Shown here piece after piece: positions 1,883 to 9,737 of a stretch of DNA of 54,307 nt. Source of the DNA: a virus. The notes under the pieces are model-generated. The model had not been told where the DNA came from and ran no database searches. It was given only the letters and a program-made list of their open reading frames with translations. Location: the IMG/VR virus record IMGVR_UViG_3300045961_000035, positions 1 through 54,307 of that record; one strand, written 5' to 3'. Within the stretch, counting starts at the first letter, position 1, and every line of letters starts with the position of its first letter. A program made the position numbers and the translations under genes.

Positions 1883-2413
1883 TTATTGGGTCAAAACCTC
1901 ACCATAATGACTCATGTAGGTCACGGCCGACTCGCGTGCCGCCTCCATACCATAGAATCCGTACTGACAATCAAGCACCTCGCCGTCATCATCAAGAATC
2001 TGAACGCCGTAGCACTCATTGTTTACCCACATAGTGTACTCGGCGACCTCTTGCTCCAGGATTTTCATGAGACGCTCGTTCAGTTTGTTGGTGATGTACT
2101 TACGGCCGAACTCCTTGAGCATGCGCTCCCTACTTAATACGGCGAAGCCAACACGTCCGCTATCCCATGAGCAACCGAACGACTTGATTGAAAACGACAA
2201 GCCGCTATGGTCGTACATGTGAATCGGAACGACCAACGCGTACCTTGGCTTCAGGTACGACGCCATGTCCTCCCATGAATCAAACGCCTCGGCACGGATG
2301 CCTAACTCGTTTGGTAGGTTGTATTTAGTGTGGTGGAACGTGAACTCAAACACGTTCTCTTGAGTCTCGCGCGGACTATCCGCGAAGACGTCATGTACAA
2401 TTTCAAATTTCAT
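1883..2413 (-). CDS. Conserved phage-type hypothetical protein, 176 aa
   Basis: A 176-residue protein of unknown function. The segment SFGCSWDSGRVGFAVLSRE, followed by a LEQEVAEYTMWVNNECYG stretch, resembles an uncharacterised protein type often found in phage early and accessory regions (SC.WDSGQVGF pattern). It starts in a four-base overlap with the gene upstream and its stop abuts the structured RNA. No catalytic motif is evident. Confidence 0.65.
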   Translation of the reverse strand: MKFEIVHDVFADSPRETQENVFEFTFHHTKYNLPNELGIRAEAFDSWEDMASYLKPRYALVVPIHMYDHSGLSFSIKSFGCSWDSGRVGFAVLSRERMLKEFGRKYITNKLNERLMKILEQEVAEYTMWVNNECYGVQILDDDGEVLDCQYGFYGMEAARESAVTYMSHYGEVLTQ

Positions 2414-2706
2414 TTTACATCAATTATTTTTCCATCCCAACGCTCTCCATTTAGGTACCAATACCAATCCTTTTGGTACACACTCACGCCATCAATGGCG
2501 TTGAGTCGTTCCTTGGTAGTGTTGCTGAACCATCCGGCGTTGGTCACCGACAAGGTGCGCTCGGGGTCATTGTACCTGTAGGCAATCGCGTTGCCGAACA
2601 AGTACATAATAGTTACGTTCTCAAGTACCTCCACTCTCGTGTTGGTTCGGTTGAACGGCCGCGCTTCCATGAATGCGCGAGCCGCGTCTTGGCTTATCTT
2701 TTTCAT
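2410..2706 (-). CDS. Conserved phage-type hypothetical protein, 98 aa
   Basis: The sequence contains FNRTNTRVEV, YLFGNAIAYR and a GWFSNTTKERLNAIDGV block, then WYWYLNGERWDG. This pattern recurs in small uncharacterised phage proteins. ATGA-type overlaps at both ends place it in the same coupled cluster. Function is unknown. Confidence 0.65.
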   Translation of the reverse strand: MKKISQDAARAFMEARPFNRTNTRVEVLENVTIMYLFGNAIAYRYNDPERTLSVTNAGWFSNTTKERLNAIDGVSVYQKDWYWYLNGERWDGKIIDVK

Positions 2707-3101
2707 AGCAGTTCGTGGTGTCCTAAAAAGTCAGCGATGCAGTCCATCTCACTCTTGGAGTCCACGTTGAACTCGCTATCAAGAAATTCAAAGTAGAGGA
2801 CGGACGCCCTCGCCCATAGTTCATCAAGGTCGTAGTCGCAGTCAAAGTACTGAAGTCGGTCGGCAATCATGAAGACGCCGTAGGCGTCCGCGTACTTTGC
2901 CGCGCACTCTTCGCGCTCGACCTTCTTAATCTCACTATGCGCGGCCGCAAGGTGGTCGCCGAGGTCGGCGGTCATGTCCTCTATAATAGAGAACGCAATC
3001 AACTTTTCACGGACGCTATAATCAACGGCCTCACCGAATGCTTCAACACATTTAACGTACTCGCCGTAGGCCGCGAGCATGGCCTTCATTTCTTGTTTCA
3101 T
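2703..3101 (-). CDS. Hypothetical helical acidic protein, 132 aa
   Basis: A mostly helical, acidic 132-residue protein with many Ala, Glu and Asp residues (for example IIEDMTADLGDHLAAAHSEI). No family is recognised. It overlaps the downstream gene by four bases and follows the upstream stop by two bases. Confidence 0.6.
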   Translation of the reverse strand: MKQEMKAMLAAYGEYVKCVEAFGEAVDYSVREKLIAFSIIEDMTADLGDHLAAAHSEIKKVEREECAAKYADAYGVFMIADRLQYFDCDYDLDELWARASVLYFEFLDSEFNVDSKSEMDCIADFLGHHELL

Positions 3102-3103
3102 GA

Positions 3104-3418
3104 TTAAATAATTGAATTGTTTTTAACTACAATGCGGTTGCCTTCGCTTCCATCCCAATCTACGGCAATGCCGAACGACTCAAGGACTCTGACAATCTCA
3201 TGGCCGTTGCCCGACCACGATAGGTAGAGGTCATCACCTCGTTGGTAGTCGGCGTGGTCTTGGGCGTGAGAGAACACGGCGCGGTCGGCCTTCTCTTCTC
3301 TTATGGCCGCCCATCCGCACGACTGACAACACATGAAGTTCTGCTTGGCGAAGTACCCTCGGTTGCGCAGTTCCTTGAACGCCAACGATAGGTTGGTTGG
3401 TTTACGTTTCATTTTCAT
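3104..3418 (-). CDS. Hypothetical protein with CCQSC motif, 104 aa
   Basis: The N-terminal part reads RNRGYFAKQNFMCCQSCGWAA, resembling an uncharacterised family (DUF6891-like) with a cysteine cluster after an aromatic-rich segment. The C-terminal half (HEIVRVLESFGIAVDWDG) resembles the same family. Function is unknown; metal binding is only a guess. Confidence 0.6.
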   Translation of the reverse strand: MKMKRKPTNLSLAFKELRNRGYFAKQNFMCCQSCGWAAIREEKADRAVFSHAQDHADYQRGDDLYLSWSGNGHEIVRVLESFGIAVDWDGSEGNRIVVKNNSII

Positions 3419-3420
3419 GA

Positions 3421-3645
3421 CTATCCTTGGTATTGTCCATGTTTAGCAGTGAACACGGCGGTCATGGCACTGATGCGCGCCTCCTCTTTGGTGTGGAACA
3501 GGTTGCCCCACGGCTCAAAGTCAAAGGAGTCGGACCACACGTACCACTTGCATTGGCCCTCGACCAACGCGCCCATGTACTTAATAGAGAACACGATGCC
3601 GTCAACGCCGGAGTGCTCTTGGTAGATTTTAAATTGTCGTTTCAT
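3421..3645 (-). CDS. Hypothetical protein, 74 aa
   Basis: I chose ATG 3645 (MKRQFKIYQEHSG) because it lies four bases after the upstream stop. The longer frame from 3687 would overlap that gene. The protein is rich in aromatic residues (KWYVWSDSFDFEPWGNLF) and has no recognised domain. Confidence 0.55.
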   Translation of the reverse strand: MKRQFKIYQEHSGVDGIVFSIKYMGALVEGQCKWYVWSDSFDFEPWGNLFHTKEEARISAMTAVFTAKHGQYQG

Positions 3646-3649
3646 GATT

Positions 3650-3880
3650 TTAATTTGTTTTGTATGGCTTCCAACCAAGAGATTCATCGCTTGTCAAATC
3701 GCAAGCAATCTCAATGTTGTTTAAGTTAGTCCAACATTCATCCGCCGTTTCGCTTGGGCGTTCAAAAAAATGCTTTTCAAGTTGTTCTTGGTAGATGAAC
3801 TTTCGGATTATGTCAAGGTCATCTTTCACCATAGCAAGTCGGTGCTTCAGTGATTCCACTTCGGTTATGTTATTTTTCAT
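3650..3880 (-). CDS. Hypothetical protein, 76 aa
   Basis: A 76-residue protein starting MKNNITEVESLKHRL, with a likely N-terminal coiled coil and an acidic C-terminal half. It is the first gene after the ardC terminator, so it is either transcribed by readthrough or from a promoter I cannot identify. Function is unknown. Confidence 0.55.
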   Translation of the reverse strand: MKNNITEVESLKHRLAMVKDDLDIIRKFIYQEQLEKHFFERPSETADECWTNLNNIEIACDLTSDESLGWKPYKTN

Positions 3881-3900
3881 AAGTAAAAAGAATTAGAAAT

Positions 3901-3930
3901 TAAAAAAAGAGAGGAGGTCATGCGACCTCC
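3901..3930 (-). terminator. Intrinsic terminator overlapping the ardC stop codon
   Basis: On the minus strand GGAGGTC pairs with GACCTCC around the loop GCAT, followed by TCTCTTTTTTT. The hairpin includes the ardC stop codon, so ardC should end a transcription unit, at least partly. Confidence 0.75.
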
Positions 3931-4841
3931 CCTACTATCATGTCAACCGCCTTACTGCTCTGCGTGAGGGCACTCACGATGGCCTTGCTCGGCGTCTCCT
4001 TAATCTTCTTACACCACCCCTGAATGTAGGCGAGGGAATTGTCTCCGCCGTCCTTTGGATTCAGTCCGGCGATACCGGATATCATCATTGAGCCGCTCTC
4101 CGCGACCAACTCCTCCATCGCGTACTGCTCACTGCCGAACACATCAAACTCAACCACGCCCTTGCGCTTGAGACGGCTATCGTGACCGGTGCTATGCACC
4201 AACTCATGGAACAAGGTCTTGTAGTAAGAGTCAGAGTCAACGAACTGCTCGACCTTGGGCATCTGAACGTAGTCCGACGCCGGTGAATAGTAGGCACTAT
4301 TGCCGCCGTGCTTGATGGCCGGCTTGCCGTCCCACGCCGCAATGATGCGCTCGGCCTCCTCAACCGGATTGAACTCTGCCGGCTCCACGACAACGGCTCC
4401 GCCACGCGGCGCAATGTCCGTGCATTGGGCTATATTAAAGACCTTGTACATCTTCAACGTGAAGTACTTCTTGATATCCTTGGGATTCTCGCCGGCACTA
4501 ATTGCGGCGGCCTCGCTCGGGTAGGTCTTCTTCGTGTCGGCGTTCCAATATCCGATGTACCAAAAGTAGATGTCGGTGGCCTTTTCGCCCTTGTTGACGC
4601 GGCCCTTCAATTCAGTCACCTGCTTGAACGTGAGCCACTCGTTGTAGTCGTAGCCGAACTCACGCATGGCCGCCGAAAGGAGCCACACGTTCATGCCGTT
4701 GTAGGCGCGGCCGCTGACGCGGTTGACCGGCCGCCAATCGGAGCCGTTGGTGGACTTCCATGGCTTGAACCACTGCAGGCCCTCGCGCTCAACTCCGGCG
4801 AGGATGGTCTCTTTTACTTGTTCGAAGATGTCTTGCTTCAT
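3918..4841 (-). CDS. ardC: ArdC-type antirestriction protein, zincin metallopeptidase, 307 aa
   Basis: The N-terminal region (residues 1-140) matches the ArdC N-terminal domain type (DUF1738): GLQWFKPWKS, GRAYNGMNVWLL and YFTLKMYKVFNIAQC are typical. ArdC-family proteins bind single-stranded DNA and protect incoming DNA from restriction. The C-terminal region has a zincin motif, HELVH at 212-216, with H220 and the later EELVAE Glu residues as possible third ligands. The length is near the family norm of about 300. The start lies 22 bases after the predicted hammerhead cleavage site and just after a CCCCC run, and an intrinsic terminator covers the stop. The family call is strong; action against host restriction is inferred from the family. 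Confidence 0.88.
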   Translation of the reverse strand: MKQDIFEQVKETILAGVEREGLQWFKPWKSTNGSDWRPVNRVSGRAYNGMNVWLLSAAMREFGYDYNEWLTFKQVTELKGRVNKGEKATDIYFWYIGYWNADTKKTYPSEAAAISAGENPKDIKKYFTLKMYKVFNIAQCTDIAPRGGAVVVEPAEFNPVEEAERIIAAWDGKPAIKHGGNSAYYSPASDYVQMPKVEQFVDSDSYYKTLFHELVHSTGHDSRLKRKGVVEFDVFGSEQYAMEELVAESGSMMISGIAGLNPKDGGDNSLAYIQGWCKKIKETPSKAIVSALTQSSKAVDMIVGEVA

Positions 4842-4850
4842 GGGGGATTT

Positions 4851-4912
4851 AATAGTTGGTTACGACGCCTCGCGGCGTTTCGGGTACTGAACCCATCATC
4901 AGGCAACCTATT
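4851..4912 (-). ncRNA. Type I hammerhead ribozyme
   Basis: Minus-strand order: stem I 5' strand GGTTGC (plus 4903-4908), invariant CTGATGA (4896-4902), stem II GGGT/ACCC with loop TCAGT (4882-4894), invariant GAAA (4878-4881), stem III with GCGA tetraloop (ACGCC/GGCGT), cleavage triplet GTC, and stem I 3' strand GTAACC (4858-4863). A15.1-U16.1 and all six stem I pairs (one G-U) are present. Outer AATA/TATT pairs extend stem I across an AAC internal loop of the kind that contacts loop II in natural type I ribozymes. Cleavage is predicted between plus positions 4864 and 4863. One deviation is an unpaired U after CTGATGA, where G-C is usual. The element exactly fills the gap between the TAG stop at 4908 and ardC. 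Confidence 0.85.
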
Positions 4913-5546
4913 TGCGTGCTTTGAACCGCAGTTTGAGACCGGTGATGTTCTCCTCGGTGCCGTCCTCACGAACCAAGACCGGAGTCCACTCATCTTCCTT
5001 CACGAAGCCAATCTCCTTGAACTCAAAGCCGTCCTCGGCGAGGCCGTTGTAGACCATGAGCGGGGTCAGGCGTCCATATGTATTGACCACGTTCTCATTG
5101 TGGTCAAACTCAAAGTACTCGGGCTTGGTCTCGAACTTGTATCCGGCGTTCTTGAGGACGTCCTCCACCACCGGACGCTGACTTGGCGTGGCGGCCTTGA
5201 GCATTTTCTCGGCCATTTCGAGACTGACCACGGCGTGGTCGGCGAACGGCTTAATCATGTCGGCAATCTTACGCTTCCAATCGCTGCAAGCCACGTCGTA
5301 GATGCGCTTAAGTTCAGCCGCCGGAACGATGTATTCAGAGCCGCCGAAGAGCGGCTTGAGGTCAGAGTCAGATTTGCCGATGTACCATAAGTTCTCGAGG
5401 TCATCATCCGACCAACCACCGAACTCGGGGTCATCGAATTGTACTTTGTAGTCTCCGTCTCGGTCTACGTTTACAATAGTTCCGGTAAAATCTTTGCCGT
5501 TGAAAGTGTAGAGGACGCGGTCGTTGAGTTTGAATGAAGTGTTCAT
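4908..5546 (-). CDS. Hypothetical protein with N-terminal SH3/Tudor-like domain, 212 aa
   Basis: Residues 1-55 (KLNDRVLYTFNGKDFTGTIV, then DGDYKVQFDD) have the spacing of a small SH3- or Tudor-like barrel. The rest is helical, then a beta-rich C-terminal domain (EFKEIGFVKEDEWTPVLV). No enzyme motif is visible. It is the first gene of the leftward operon, preceded by a structured leader and a CCCC-containing leader motif. Its stop codon is the 5' border of the hammerhead. Function is unknown. Confidence 0.65.
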   Translation of the reverse strand: MNTSFKLNDRVLYTFNGKDFTGTIVNVDRDGDYKVQFDDPEFGGWSDDDLENLWYIGKSDSDLKPLFGGSEYIVPAAELKRIYDVACSDWKRKIADMIKPFADHAVVSLEMAEKMLKAATPSQRPVVEDVLKNAGYKFETKPEYFEFDHNENVVNTYGRLTPLMVYNGLAEDGFEFKEIGFVKEDEWTPVLVREDGTEENITGLKLRFKARK

Positions 5547-5574
5547 GAGTAAAATTAAATTAGGGGTTTTATTT

Positions 5575-5638
5575 CCGCTCTGCGCTCACCGGACTATCCG
5601 GTGCCTACCCTTGCGAAGTAGGAATGGCGCATTAGAAA
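5575..5638 (-). ncRNA. Three-way-junction leader RNA, twister-like candidate
   Basis: On the minus strand TAA precedes TGCGC, which pairs with GCGCA followed by GAG, enclosing two hairpins. One is CCTAC/GTAGG with the loop TTCGCAAGG. The other is CACCGGA/TCCGGTG, perfect over seven pairs. The order TAATGC-GCC, hairpin loop with CAAG, then GCAGAG resembles the twister ribozyme consensus as I remember it. However, the A-rich 3' internal strand is replaced by a hairpin, and I could not confirm both pseudoknots. It lies in the 5' leader of the left operon. It may instead be a cis-regulatory fold of another kind. Confidence 0.4.
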
Positions 5639-5660
5639 GGAAGCGCAATACTGCGCCTCC
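5639..5660 (-). terminator. Leader hairpin, possible attenuator
   Basis: On the minus strand GGAGGCGCA pairs with TGCGCTTCC (one G-U) around GTAT, followed by the short run TTTCT. It lies just upstream of the three-way-junction RNA and could attenuate leftward transcription. The U run is weak, so a purely structural role is equally possible. Confidence 0.35.
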
Positions 5661-5687
5661 CTCCCCAATTTTGTTTTTGTCGTTGGT

Positions 5688-5921
5688 CTACTTTGGTCGG
5701 GCGTTTGATATCGTTGGCATCGGTCTCGGTTTCGGGCTTCGGGCATTCCGTGGTCGGTCTGCTCTCGCCGGTTGTCGGCCTACATGAGGACTCGCGTCCT
5801 CACTCCCTCGTCTGCTTATTTTTTCTGCGCCTCTTCGGTTTTGACTGCATCCCCGCCGTACTATTCCGCAATTCCTCGCATCTTGGCCTACCTTTCGCTT
5901 CCCCTTGCGCCGTGGCGTCAT
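5688..5921 (-). CDS. Possible Arg-rich small protein, 77 aa
   Basis: The frame begins MTPRRKGKRKVGQDARNCG and stays very rich in Arg, Pro and Ser. Its ATG overlaps the stop of the preceding small frame in ATGA fashion, as is common among real genes here, and the coding strand is purine-rich. No domain is visible, and the composition could equally reflect a non-coding RNA. Confidence 0.25.
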   Translation of the reverse strand: MTPRRKGKRKVGQDARNCGIVRRGCSQNRRGAEKISRRGSEDASPHVGRQPARADRPRNARSPKPRPMPTISNARPK

Positions 5922-6103
5922 TGTCTTGGCATTGTGTTGGACTCACCTACACTGCCTCCGTTTGGGGTTGGTACTTCTCTTGGCCTACTTGCGCTCACCT
6001 TGTGGCGTCGTGGCGTCGGGTTATGTGAAAGAACGTTGCAGGGATGTGGGGCGCAACCTAATCCGCCTCGTTGGGCGGCCTCCGGTCGGTTGGGCGAAGT
6101 CAC
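5918..6103 (-). CDS. Possible small Pro/Arg-rich protein, 61 aa
   Basis: The frame starts with GTG at 6103, which overlaps the TGA of a 14-codon mini-frame, and ends in an ATGA overlap with the next candidate. It is low in complexity (Pro, Arg, Ser, Gly) and has no recognised domain. The overlap pattern is the only support. Confidence 0.2.
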   Translation of the reverse strand: MTSPNRPEAAQRGGLGCAPHPCNVLSHNPTPRRHKVSASRPREVPTPNGGSVGESNTMPRQ

Positions 6104-6272
6104 ATATGCAGAAGAACGTTGTCCCGTTGGAACGATGCAAACATGGGCAGAGGAAAAAATGAATCAACTATTGCATATGAACTTTTTTTGATTCTGTAGC
6201 ACTGACGCGGGTTTCCGAGCGAAACTTTTTGATATGTGTGTTACAACATGTATGTATGAATGGGTTAGTTTG

Positions 6273-6470
6273 CTGATTGTCAGACGTTTACGTTAACTCT
6301 TTAAGAGTCAACGAATTAGTAATCCATATTGATTCTAAATAAGTAAGTGTGCTGATAATCAAGCAATTGCAATGTGCTGATAATCAATGGATTGTCAGAT
6401 TTTGGTGGGTACACGTCGTGTACCTATCTATTTGGACAGAATCTAAATAGTGTAACTAACTGATATTCAG
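6273..6470. repeat. Cluster of CTGATNNTCAG-type palindromes
   Basis: Copies are CTGATTGTCAG (6273-6283), CTGATAATCAA (6352-6362), CTGATAATCAA (6377-6387) with a half-site ATTGTCAG (6391-6398), and CTGATATTCAG (6460-6470). A perfect version, GCTGATTATCAGC, lies at 7698-7710 and another, CTGATAATCAA, at 11395-11405. The arrangement suggests operators for a dimeric regulator or sites for an initiator protein. The winged-helix protein at 10006-10635 is one candidate binder, by inference only. Confidence 0.5.
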
Positions 6471-6574
6471 CATGTTCCATTGGATGAGATTGTTGTTGGG
6501 TCTTTTGTAACTGATTGAAAACGAGATGTTTATGTTGGCGGTCGGTGGATGCATCCGCGTAGAAATTAGAGAAA

Positions 6575-6790
6575 ACTGACGGGCGGGCGGGGCTTAACCG
6601 CCCTCTTCGGGCGTCTCTTTTGTAGTAAAAACGCGGGGCGGACGGGCGGAACGGGCGCGGTGACGGCGGCCGGACGGGGCGCGTGGCGCGACAGGTGCGC
6701 TGCCTGTACGACGATGTTGGAACATGCATGTTGCAACACGGAAACGGCAAAAAATCCGGACGGGGCTCGGCAAATCAGACCCCCCCTATC
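6575..6790. other. GC-rich island with GGGCGG tracts
   Basis: This stretch is far richer in G and C than its flanks and carries repeated GGGCGG and GCGGGGC tracts. A short plus-strand hairpin, CGCCC-TCTTC-GGGCG, is followed by TCTCTTTT at about 6588-6610 and may terminate transcription. A 67-codon plus-strand frame (6660-6863) covers part of it but has no recognisable motif. The composition suggests recent acquisition or a structural role. Confidence 0.4.
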
Positions 6791-6869
6791 GAAAAAATAT
6801 CGGTTTCCGGAACGGGCGGTGTCGCGTAGGATGGCAGGGAACCCAAACCCTCTAAAAATCTGATGTCCG

Positions 6870-6877
6870 TATATTTG
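6870..6877 (+). promoter_or_regulatory. Bacteroidota -7-like box TATATTTG
   Basis: TATATTTG matches the TAnnTTTG -7 consensus of the Bacteroidota primary sigma factor and lies 4 bases before the ATG at 6881. No clear -33 TTTG is seen at the usual spacing. Confidence 0.5.
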
Positions 6878-6880
6878 CTT

Positions 6881-7030
6881 ATGGACTGGTGGGCTATCGA
6901 GATAGAGAATCGTGTGATGACTGGCTTCGTTGTTGGTGTGGAGTTCTACCGTGCTGACGTGGAGTTGGAGGAGCCGGGTGAGTTTCGGTTACACTTGGGA
7001 CTGTTAAGTATAAATTTTCTGTGGTTATGA
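6881..7030 (+). CDS. Small hypothetical protein, 49 aa
   Basis: The frame begins MDWWAIEIENRVMTG and is rich in Val, Glu and aromatic residues. An in-frame ATG at 6863 lies upstream of the promoter box, so 6881 or an internal Met is a better start and the transcript may be nearly leaderless. It ends in an ATGA overlap with the next gene. Function is unknown. Confidence 0.5.
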   Translation: MDWWAIEIENRVMTGFVVGVEFYRADVELEEPGEFRLHLGLLSINFLWL

Positions 7031-7182
7031 AAAACGCAAAGATGATTCCGGACTCGAAGCCGGTTATGGTAGGTGAGACTGGTATCCAGGCTGCTCTCCG
7101 TGTCAAGAAGACGAAGGAGATGATGGGCGAGATGGCTGAGGCTATGATGGAGGCGCGTATTATGCGTGGTCGTCGTGGCTAA
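7027..7182 (+). CDS. Small Met/Arg-rich hypothetical protein, 51 aa
   Basis: A 51-residue protein with a Met- and Glu-rich helix (KEMMGEMAEAMMEARIM) and an RGRRG tail. It overlaps both neighbours by a few bases. The helix could dimerise; function is unknown. Confidence 0.5.
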   Translation: MKNAKMIPDSKPVMVGETGIQAALRVKKTKEMMGEMAEAMMEARIMRGRRG

Positions 7183-7294
7183 GTCGAGCAAGAAGCGCAC
7201 GAACAAGGTAGTCGGTGTGAAGAAGGTGAGTGCTGACAGGGCACAGACCGGACGTCGGAACCTTGACGTGTTAGATGCCATAAAATCCCGGTAG
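7175..7294 (+). CDS. Small basic protein, 39 aa
   Basis: GTG start at 7175, overlapping the previous stop. The sequence (MAKSSKKRTNKVVGVKK) is strongly basic, like the small proteins at 10667 and 12867, suggesting nucleic-acid binding. Function is unknown. Confidence 0.5.
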   Translation: MAKSSKKRTNKVVGVKKVSADRAQTGRRNLDVLDAIKSR

Positions 7295-7367
7295 GTATCC
7301 TACCGTGATGTTAGAAGAGGAGGGCTTGGCTCTCCTTTTCTGCTTTTATAGAGTCTCTAGACTCTAT
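7289..7367 (+). terminator. Terminator-like hairpin cluster
   Basis: Three inverted repeats follow the small genes: CGGTAGG/CCTACCG (7289-7305), AGGAG/CTCCT followed by TTTTC (7318-7340), and ATAGAGTC/GACTCTAT (7348-7367). The second has the form of an intrinsic terminator and probably ends the small operon before the repeat array. Confidence 0.5.
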
Positions 7368-7414
7368 CAATTTCAGTTCTCTAAGACTAAAAGAGTACTT
7401 AATCAGTACTCTTG

Positions 7415-7724
7415 TGTCGATTCTTATATAGTTAGTGTCGATTTAATGTCGATTTAGTGTCGATTTCTATTCTATTATATTATTGATTTTCAATTAGTTA
7501 TATATAAAATGTCGAAAATGTCGATTTTAAAGTCGATTTTCTCTGAGAAAAAATATTTTACAACCCTATATATATAGAGAGAGAATAGGAAACCCAAAAA
7601 AACCGACATTTTCGACACTTCACAGCTCAAAGAGCTGAGAACCAGCCGACTAAGTCGACACAAAACCGACACAGGTTAGTGTCGATTTCTTTAAGTTGCT
7701 GATTATCAGCATACATTTTCGACA
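7415..7724. repeat. TGTCGA repeat array, putative replication origin
   Basis: About a dozen copies of TGTCGA or its complement lie in 310 AT-rich bases. Three TGTCGATTT copies start at 7436, 7447 and 7458, exactly 11 bases apart. TGTCGAAAATGTCG at 7510-7523 has its exact reverse complement at 7604-7617, forming a long inverted repeat around a TATATATA-containing core. Further copies lie at 7415, 7519, 7654, 7680 and 7719. Iterons plus an AT-rich spacer between divergent units are typical of replication origins. A perfect GCTGATTATCAGC palindrome sits within the array. Confidence 0.6.
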
Positions 7725-7759
7725 TCGGTCGCTTCGCGAACTCATTTATTTGGTTTTTG

Positions 7760-7767
7760 TAACTTTG
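7760..7767 (+). promoter_or_regulatory. -7-like box TAACTTTG
   Basis: TAACTTTG fits TAnnTTTG and lies 24 bases before the ATG at 7792. A TTTG at 7749 is too close to be the -33 element. Confidence 0.5.
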
Positions 7768-7791
7768 CGTAGAACTTAAAGAACACGAAAG

Positions 7792-8061
7792 ATGCCAGAC
7801 CCAAAGAAGAAGATTGTAGGTATGCAGCCCGGGCACGAGTACGCTTCAAGCCGGAAGTACATGCCCAAGAGCGATAGCTTTGAAGAGCGCGTTCAGTTCG
7901 AAGACGCCAGCAACAAGGGTAAGCTTCGCAACATTGACGTAGAGACAGGTCGTGTTTACGGCAGAAGAACGCTCATGGTGCCGCCATTACAAAGTAAGGG
8001 GCTTACTATGCCAAAGATGACGCCAAAGGGTAGAGACATTCCGCTCCCAAAGACAAAGTAG
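7792..8061 (+). CDS. Hypothetical basic protein, 89 aa
   Basis: An 89-residue Lys-, Met- and Pro-rich protein (N-terminus MPDPKKKIVGMQPGHEY, C-terminus PLPKTK) with no recognised domain. It is a single-gene unit with its own -7-like box and a strong terminator immediately before groEL. It looks largely disordered and might be a minor virion or DNA-binding protein. Confidence 0.65.
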   Translation: MPDPKKKIVGMQPGHEYASSRKYMPKSDSFEERVQFEDASNKGKLRNIDVETGRVYGRRTLMVPPLQSKGLTMPKMTPKGRDIPLPKTK

Positions 8062-8084
8062 TAGTACTTAATATAGCAAAAAGT

Positions 8085-8114
8085 AGCCGGATGATTTGGT
8101 CACCCGGCTTTTTT
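8085..8114 (+). terminator. Intrinsic terminator before groEL
   Basis: AGCCGG pairs with CCGGCT, with an inner TGA/TCA pairing, around a TTTGG loop and followed by TTTTTT. It separates the small gene from the groEL promoter a few bases further on. Confidence 0.85.
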
Positions 8115-8118
8115 ATTT

Positions 8119-8126
8119 TACCTTTG
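8119..8126 (+). promoter_or_regulatory. groEL -7-like box TACCTTTG
   Basis: TACCTTTG matches TAnnTTTG and lies 18 bases before the groEL ATG at 8145. It sits directly after the terminator, so the chaperonin unit has its own promoter. Confidence 0.6.
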
Positions 8127-8144
8127 GCATCAAATACGAATCGA

Positions 8145-9737
8145 ATGGACTACACACCTAAGAGTTTGACCTTTGACCAGGACGGTCGCGAGCGTTTGCT
8201 CAGTGGATTGGATAAGATGGCCAAGGCCGTCGGCAGTACGTTGGGGCCTAGGGGCAAGACGGTGCTGATTGAGAGCCAACACCACACGCACGGCATCACT
8301 GTAACCAAGGACGGGGTGACTGTCGCCAAGAGTATTGACCTGTTGGACCCGGTTGAGAACCTAGCGGTGCGCATGATGCGCGAGGCGGCGGAGCGCACGG
8401 CTACGAGTGCTGGTGACGGCACGACCACGGCGGTGGTGCTGACCCACGCGCTGGTGCGTACGGGCATGCAGCTCATCACCGACGAGTACAACGCCACTGA
8501 GGTGCTGCGTCACATGCACAGCCTGAGTGAGGAGGCCATTAAGAAGCTCGAGAAGATGTCGCGGAAGGTGACGCCGTCGAGGTTGAAGGACGTGGCGACT
8601 ATCTCCGCCAACAACGACCGCACGCTCGGTGAGCTCATCGCTAAGGTGTACGGACAGGTGGGGAAGAACGGGCTGGTAACGGTCGAGAAGGGCACCGGCG
8701 ACGAGACGACCTACGAGGTGACAAACGGGATACGCATCGACAGGGGGTACAGCACCAAGCTGTTCGTGAACGACCAGAAGAAGGACGAGTGTGTGCTCGA
8801 GGACGTGTACATCCTGATGACGGACCACGAGATAAGTAACATCTTACAGATTGAGACGGTGCTCAAGCCCATCGTGGCTGGTGGGCATAAGCTGCTCATC
8901 ATCGCTCCGTGCAGTAACCAGGTCACAACGACGCTGGCCGCCAACGTCATTAAGAACGGGCTGAAGCTGTGCGCCATCGCGCCACCTCAGTTCGGCTACA
9001 AGCAGCACGAGCTGATGGGTGACATCGCCGCTAGCGTCGGCGGTCGGTTCATAAGCGAGGGGATGGGCGACGAGCTCAGCCTGGTGACCATGGCCGACCT
9101 GGGTCATGCCGCTAAGGTCATCGTCGGTAAGGACTCGACGGTCATCGTCCGTAAGGAAGGGACGAGCGCAGAGGTGAACGCCAGGGTGAATGAGCTGTGG
9201 AGCGCCCACGACCAGGCCAGTAAGAAGGGCGACCGTGACTTCATCAAGCAGCGCATCGCCAGCCTGACTGGTGGGGTTGGTATTATCTACGTTGGGGGCA
9301 GCTCGGACGTGGAGCAGAAGGAGACCTACGACCGGGTAGAGGACGCGGTGCAGGCCGTGCGCTCGGCGCTCGAGGAGGGTATACTGCCGGGTGGTGGCGT
9401 AGCGCTGCACAGCGTGTCGCACTGGATGGACGACAACATCACAGCCACGTCTGAGGAGATGAGGCTGGCGCACCGCATCATGTCGCTGGCGATGATTGAG
9501 CCTGCCGCGCGCATCGTCGAGAACGCCGGCCTTGAGTTCATCGAGATAGCTGGCGGCATGGATGGTGACAATGGGCTCAACGTGAAGACTATGACGTACG
9601 GTGACATGTACGACATGGGCGTCATCGACCCACTGAAGGTAACTAAGAACGCGCTGCGTAACGCGGTGAGCGTGGCCACGACGATACTGAGCACCAACGC
9701 CATCATCACGCTGGCTAGAAGCTACGAGGACAGTTGA
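8145..9737 (+). CDS. groEL: Phage-encoded GroEL-type chaperonin, 530 aa
   Basis: GroEL forms double-ring ATPase chambers that fold proteins together with GroES. Recognisable blocks are STLGPRGKTVLIE (31-43), KDGVTVAKSIDLLDPVENL (55-73), the nucleotide loop AGDGTTTAVVL (89-99) and EDAVQAVRSALEEGILPGGG near the C-terminus. The length is slightly below bacterial GroEL (about 545), and the Gly-Met-rich tail is absent. I chose ATG 8145 because the upstream 18 codons overlap the promoter and terminator. The apical region is more divergent than the equatorial region, as expected for a specialised client such as capsid or fibre protein. It is followed by a zinc-knuckle-like ORF and GroES in one operon. 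Confidence 0.95.
   Translation: MDYTPKSLTFDQDGRERLLSGLDKMAKAVGSTLGPRGKTVLIESQHHTHGITVTKDGVTVAKSIDLLDPVENLAVRMMREAAERTATSAGDGTTTAVVLTHALVRTGMQLITDEYNATEVLRHMHSLSEEAIKKLEKMSRKVTPSRLKDVATISANNDRTLGELIAKVYGQVGKNGLVTVEKGTGDETTYEVTNGIRIDRGYSTKLFVNDQKKDECVLEDVYILMTDHEISNILQIETVLKPIVAGGHKLLIIAPCSNQVTTTLAANVIKNGLKLCAIAPPQFGYKQHELMGDIAASVGGRFISEGMGDELSLVTMADLGHAAKVIVGKDSTVIVRKEGTSAEVNARVNELWSAHDQASKKGDRDFIKQRIASLTGGVGIIYVGGSSDVEQKETYDRVEDAVQAVRSALEEGILPGGGVALHSVSHWMDDNITATSEEMRLAHRIMSLAMIEPAARIVENAGLEFIEIAGGMDGDNGLNVKTMTYGDMYDMGVIDPLKVTKNALRNAVSVATTILSTNAIITLARSYEDS

Follow-up and report, generated by a model that had tools for sequence, protein, structure and literature searches.

A type I hammerhead ribozyme upstream of ardC in an uncultured phage, and a class of intercistronic relatives largely missed by Rfam

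Introduction

What would a self-cleaving RNA do between two genes of one phage transcript? The question arises from a locus in the window analysed here, which is the complete 54,307-nt IMG/VR virus record IMGVR_UViG_3300045961_000035. On its minus strand, 66 nt separate a gene for a 212-aa protein (5546-4908) from the anti-restriction gene ardC (4841-3918), and a reading of the sequence alone had placed a hammerhead ribozyme in this gap.

That reading rightly noted that hammerheads are known in phages. Prophage examples lie next to ardA (PMC3088659). Tandem prophage hammerheads cleave in vitro within native polycistronic RNAs of ~2 kb, hammerheads around Agrobacterium ardA cleave in E. coli, and in three Legionella strains a hammerhead directly precedes the anti-restriction gene ardA (Perreault et al. 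2011, PMC3088659). The same authors have already proposed that such ribozymes process transcripts into gene-length mRNAs (PMC3088659). A 2017 review described the roles of prokaryotic hammerheads as an open question (PMC6155905).

Results

A complete hammerhead core in the gap before ardC

The features of the locus, in minus-strand order, are:

5546-4908 (-): upstream gene, 212 aa, from the ORF list
4908-4858 (-): type I hammerhead ribozyme core with stem I open to the flanks, from sequence, fold, descriptor scan and covariance model
4908-4903 (-): stem I 5' strand GGUUGC, six pairs with 4863-4858, one of them G-U
4902-4896 (-): CUGAUGA core, C3 to A9, from sequence
4895 (-): extra U at the junction of A9 and stem II, recurrent in relatives
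4894-4882 (-): stem II GGGU-UCAGU-ACCC, 4 bp with a UCAGU pentaloop that fits the UNNNU pentaloop of the 4-bp class
4881-4878 (-): GAAA, from sequence
4878-4865 (-): stem III A15.1-CGCC/GCGA/GGCG-U16.1 with a GCGA (GNRA) loop, from sequence
4864 (-): C17, from sequence
4864/4863 (-): predicted cleavage site between C17 (4864) and G1.1 (4863), by the hammerhead rule GUC/N
4863-4858 (-): stem I 3' strand GUAACC, paired with GGUUGC
4863-4842 (-): 22-nt ardC leader after the predicted cut, with little structure and no Shine-Dalgarno sequence
4841-3918 (-): ardC, 307 aa, ArdC N-terminal domain and zincin-like metallopeptidase, from Pfam and PHROG
3933-3910 (-): strong intrinsic-terminator-like hairpin with a U run, overlapping the ardC end, a consensus match only

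In order, the segments GGUUGC, CUGAUGA, U, GGGU-UCAGU-ACCC, GAAA, CGCC-GCGA-GGCG and UC, followed after the cut by GUAACC, make a full type I hammerhead. All conserved residues of the core consensus used for comparison (PMC3088659) are present between 4902 and 4864, namely C3, U4, G5, A6, N7, G8 and A9, then G12, A13 and A14, the A15.1-U16.1 pair and H17. The core-adjacent pairs G1.1-C2.1, G10.1-C11.1 and A15.1-U16.1 are formed, and stems I, II and III have six, four and five pairs. The earlier claim that every core element follows in order on this strand, closed by a six-pair stem I, is borne out at the level of sequence.

The minimum-energy fold of the region is exactly the hammerhead structure. 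Its folding energy is unexceptional (z of -1.1 and -1.8), and taken alone that energy (z -1.1) is unconvincing as proof of a ribozyme. The stem III hairpin was also considered as an intrinsic terminator and rejected, as it has no U run; a terminator-like hairpin lies instead at the end of ardC.

At its 5' edge the element meets the UAG stop codon of the 212-aa gene (4910-4908), whose last base is shared with stem I. The idea that the ribozyme fills the gap from the upstream stop holds in that the element begins at the stop edge, and needs a correction of one base, by which the UAG overlaps stem I. The predicted cut between 4864 and 4863 lies, as first read, 22 bases before the ardC ATG at 4841. 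We do not retain a proposed outer extension of stem I, in which AAUA would pair with UAUU beyond an AAC internal loop. It is absent from the predicted fold and is 28.1% paired in relatives versus 27.7% in shuffles; in the class alignment described below, conserved A-7, A+7 and A+8 flank stem I in its place.

The downstream gene had been correctly named. Its product matches Pfam PF08401 (ArdcN, 6e-25) and PF18818 (zincin-like metallopeptidase, 2e-32), both over cut-off, as well as PHROG 7245, anti-restriction protein (1.6e-68), and the HExxH residues H212, E213 and H216 are invariant in the alignment. The 212-aa gene has no Pfam or PHROG match and no relative among named phages or in IMG/VR. 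The window DNA has no close relative among named phages, and the ribozyme sequence finds only partial, chance-level matches there.

Chance controls and a covariance model built without the window

A type I hammerhead descriptor matches the window once, with stems of 6, 4 and 5 pairs. Across 400 dinucleotide-shuffled windows it gave no match at strict settings (stems of at least 5, 3 and 4 pairs) and eight at loose settings (at least 4, 2 and 3). To the Rfam 15 models the element is silent: searching the window with all of them returned no hammerhead match, either at the curated cut-offs or at E up to 10. The sequence-only reading had named such silence among the grounds for abandoning the ribozyme, and taken literally this ground applies. 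We do not read this as a refutation, because most phage relatives are also missed by Rfam; the silence reflects a failure of sensitivity and makes a poor test. At cut-offs, Rfam reports two hammerheads across 20 relative loci, with RF03152 (RAGATH-1) and RF02276 (type II) each reaching cut-off in one of the 20; neither of these models matches the window.

The model closest in architecture is that of RF00163 type I hammerheads (clan CL00010), which share with the window element the order of elements, the core, looped stems II and III and an open stem I. They differ in how the model scores the phage sequences. At permissive settings, relatives without the extra U reach 20-31 bits against a cut-off of 34, whereas three sequences with the extra U, those of the window, L078 and L152, go unmatched even at permissive E-values. 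Since Rfam annotation misses most such elements, the number of phage hammerheads is probably underestimated.

From 38 of the relatives, a covariance model was built with the window left out. This model scores the window at 65.9 bits (E = 5.8e-15, the tool's E-values being rough). Run against 945 kb of random viral loci, it gives no match at E up to 1. Neither the model nor the descriptor scan finds another hammerhead in the window. Among the 38 relatives, 12 of the 15 pairs show two-sided changes, all three stems covary, and the covariation score is 0.727 versus 0.147 in shuffles; the 100% pairing in this set is partly by construction, as its rows were picked by minimum stem lengths. Structure, covariation in relatives and the window-free model together confirm the element, as far as sequence can, as a type I hammerhead.

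Relatives define a class of phage hammerheads

An IMG/VR search with a pattern that fixed the core and the stem III of the window, and left stems I and II free, matched at least 120 loci. Among the matches listed for this first pattern there are 115 distinct hammerheads, the window included, and stem I has at least four contiguous pairs in 109-110 of these 115. Because the pattern did not ask for stem I pairing, its presence indicates that the matches are real hammerheads. One of the phage contigs that carries a hammerhead also holds an int-alpA RNA (RF02996; L023, 5293-5229, minus strand).

In all the loci examined we count 310 distinct hammerheads, and in 131 of them stem II has 4 bp and its loop 5 nt. 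Within this class of 131, stem I is exactly 6 bp in 122, the stem II loop is mostly UNNNU, and the positions around stem I are conserved: A-7 in 98%, G-6 and C+6 in 97%, A+7 in 91% and A+8 in 73%. The window has A-7, the G-6/C+6 pair, A+7, A+8 and a UNNNU loop, none of which was part of the search pattern, and by these sequence features its element is a member of a defined phage hammerhead class. The conserved stem I flanks and the stem II loop likely form a putative loop-to-stem contact.

The extra U is a recurrent variant

A single unpaired U after CUGAUGA had been described as the only clear departure from the canonical ribozyme. The U is there, but it recurs in phage hammerheads as a variant and is not an anomaly of this copy. 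Among the matches listed, it occurs in 25 of the 115 distinct hammerheads of the first pattern, and outside that pattern in 10 of 86, each time as a U with a G after it. Overall the core insertion is a U in 138 of 140 cases, a total that is enriched by a second pattern that searched for UGG. The insertion breaks the usual consensus of an uninterrupted core, which has known natural exceptions and is no strict requirement, and leaves all conserved residues in place.

The extra U could slow cleavage. At the extreme, it would leave this copy inactive or very slow, so that the region would be a structural hairpin that does no processing in vivo. The departure from the consensus core and the missing Rfam match speak for this, as does the low activity reported for another core insertion, after A6 (PMC3088659); active natural core variants have been reported as well (PMC3088659). 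Against an inactive copy stands the finding that the same U occupies the same place in many relatives whose stems otherwise differ, that the inserted base is almost always U, and that the G10.1-C11.1 pair that follows it is intact. A viroid hammerhead with one extra core nucleotide has been described (De la Pena and Flores 2001, J Biol Chem 276:34586). That RNA resembles the window element as a natural hammerhead with a single extra core nucleotide, and differs in being a viroid RNA, whereas here a U is inserted in the mRNA of a DNA phage. In the viroid, the extra nucleotide is said to be placed between A9 and stem II. On balance, we consider an inactive copy very improbable.

Placement between stop and start codons

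For 281 hammerheads with enough flanking sequence, we compared the positions of ORFs of at least 60 codons with those around random same-strand positions. An ORF ends within -30 to +45 of C3 in 80% of hammerheads versus 18% of random positions, an ORF starts 5-60 nt past the cut in 74% versus 35%, and both hold in 63% versus 7%. The start codon follows the cut at a median of 27 nt, and most upstream stop codons have their last base at -9 to -4, at 0 or at +4. The window, with a stop ending at -5 and a start at +22, is typical. In 41 relatives, the UGA of the catalytic CUGA is itself the stop codon of the upstream ORF, such that translation and catalysis share the same sequence.

Hammerheads can also occur in series. 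One contig (L113, IMGVR_UViG_3300030382_001968) carries fourteen on one strand within 6.3 kb (2288-8613), many of them directly between consecutive small genes, and many are followed ~20 nt past the cut by a strong Shine-Dalgarno sequence and AUG. The window has a single hammerhead and no array.

This placement bears on a reading in which the ribozyme cleaves, but serves to lower or gate expression of ardC or of the upstream gene, with RNA folding competing with ribosomes that complete the upstream gene and cleavage hanging on upstream translation. Most relatives have the upstream stop codon right where the ribozyme begins, and in 41 that codon is the UGA of CUGA, so that a ribosome terminating there would sit over the core; in the window the upstream stop overlaps stem I. 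Yet any intergenic element in a compact phage genome would be pressed against a stop codon, neither a ligand domain nor another fold was found, and the leader after the cut is unstructured. We regard such gating as unlikely.

Association with ardC

Of the 132 genes that directly follow a hammerhead, more belong to ArdC than to any other recognised family, six by Pfam or seven by PHROGs, counts that include the window and one ArdC-selected locus. The 220 hammerhead-pattern loci hold 19 ArdC genes, which form 14 groups at 60% identity, and in each of the 27 hammerhead-ArdC pairs of these loci both partners lie on the same strand. No ArdC was found in 240 random viral loci (2.1 Mb; Fisher 5e-7, uncorrected for relatedness). 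Conversely, hammerheads occur in 7 of 80 ArdC-selected loci versus one of 240 random loci, the latter a weak and probably spurious match (3e-4). In L248, hammerheads at 3873-3940 and 4944-5029 directly flank ardC (3956-4951) on both sides. A constant pairing is ruled out: a hammerhead lies directly before ardC in only one of the 80 ArdC-selected loci, and the closest ArdC relatives, L001 (49%) and L229 (47%), have none upstream. The association may be functional, or it may reflect shared phage lineages or regional gene content. A search of titles and abstracts for ArdC together with hammerhead returned only matches on unrelated ribozymes; subscription papers and the supplementary alignments of surveys were outside its scope.

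This uneven pairing is one reason to ask whether the element is a mobile or selfish cassette, or the leftover of one, that was inserted between genes and is tolerated, the phage gaining nothing from cleavage. In favour of this, many unrelated genes have a hammerhead before them, hammerheads are not kept with ardC across relatives, and they are often part of selfish elements (PMC3088659). A tolerated insertion fits poorly with a core and pairs that stay intact, through compensatory changes, across divergent sequences, or with the tight placement relative to stop and start codons, and we consider it improbable.

Discussion

We think it probable that the hammerhead in the 66-nt gap is a built-in processing site that separates the message of the 212-aa gene from that of ardC. 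The sequence-only reading had proposed that cleavage within a longer transcript defines where the ardC message starts, and our analysis supports this on three counts: the stop-hammerhead-start placement recurs in other phages, serial arrays such as that of L113 occur, and a strong terminator-like hairpin stands at the end of ardC. This hairpin (3933-3910) has 10 pairs, six of them GC, and a CTTTTTTT tail; our promoter and terminator scans are consensus matches only. Its overlap with the 3' end of the gene makes ardC probably the last of its unit, and cleavage would then release a single-gene ardC message.

Cleavage, the resulting RNA ends and their benefit in the window phage are what we infer from this arrangement, as follows. 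The leftward transcript, once made, would fold and cut itself after C17 (4864). The type I topology would leave most of the ribozyme on the upstream message, which would end in the stem II and stem III hairpins and carry a terminal 2',3'-cyclic phosphate. For ardC, the result would be a single-gene RNA of ~950 nt that opens with a 5'-hydroxyl, continues through a 22-nt leader with almost no structure and stops at the terminator-like hairpin over the ardC stop. The two messages would then be uncoupled in their fates, and ardC would gain a defined, open leader for its translation; we see in this the likely benefit. On general reasoning, the new 5' end would also go unrecognised by decay enzymes that depend on a 5'-monophosphate or triphosphate, and the 3' end of the upstream message would be protected by its hairpins. 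The leader has no Shine-Dalgarno sequence, which is uninformative about the ribozyme because none of the window genes examined has a clear one directly before its start. The lack of such sequences across the genes checked may mean that the host makes little use of them.

By analogy, known systems support the plausibility of processing in the window phage, through the cleavage seen for prophage hammerheads and the effects of RiboJ, an engineered ribozyme insulator that in E. coli raises transcript ~2-fold and protein 2- to 10-fold (PMC6206723). RiboJ is likewise a self-cleaving ribozyme that stands before a coding sequence and leaves a defined leader; unlike the window element, it is engineered and is not set against an upstream stop codon. 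The prophage hammerheads of Perreault et al. also lie between co-directional phage genes. Their neighbour is ardA, whereas here it is ardC, which belongs to another protein family, and the window ribozyme carries the extra U.

Type I hammerheads in phages, some of them next to ardA, and the idea of processing are thus already known. What is added here is a member with a core insertion that Rfam misses, a description of the phage class, a quantified placement, an array longer than the Agrobacterium example (14 hammerheads versus three) and the association with ardC. Parts of this class may already be listed in the supplementary alignments of earlier surveys. With ardC, hammerheads are tied to a second kind of anti-restriction gene, after ardA. 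The window element and several hundred relatives share a repeated arrangement of stop, ribozyme, leader of ~27 nt and start, which makes the processing proposal of Perreault et al. directly testable through 5'-hydroxyl RNA ends.

More tentatively, and with rather less confidence than for the window itself, we suggest that many environmental phages may dice polycistronic transcripts cistron by cistron with distinctive intercistronic hammerheads. Such hammerheads would combine a stem I of exactly 6 bp between conserved A residues with a stem II that is either longer or has 4 bp and a UNNNU loop, and would often carry an extra U in the core; they would sit between stop and start codons, in arrays of up to 14, be largely invisible to Rfam and occur preferentially in anti-restriction operons such as those with ardC. 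If this is true, gene expression in phages would include dicing by ribozymes as a general layer.

Beyond the ribozyme, the region to the right of the 212-aa gene has features of its own. A stretch of ~2.2 kb (5547-7790) that parts the leftward from the rightward gene block holds no convincing gene, and several hairpins that resemble terminators lie there, on both strands. The rightward block has, close to its start, a gene for a GroEL-type chaperonin (8091-9737, plus strand; Pfam Cpn60, 3e-61; PHROG chaperonin groEL, 3e-135).
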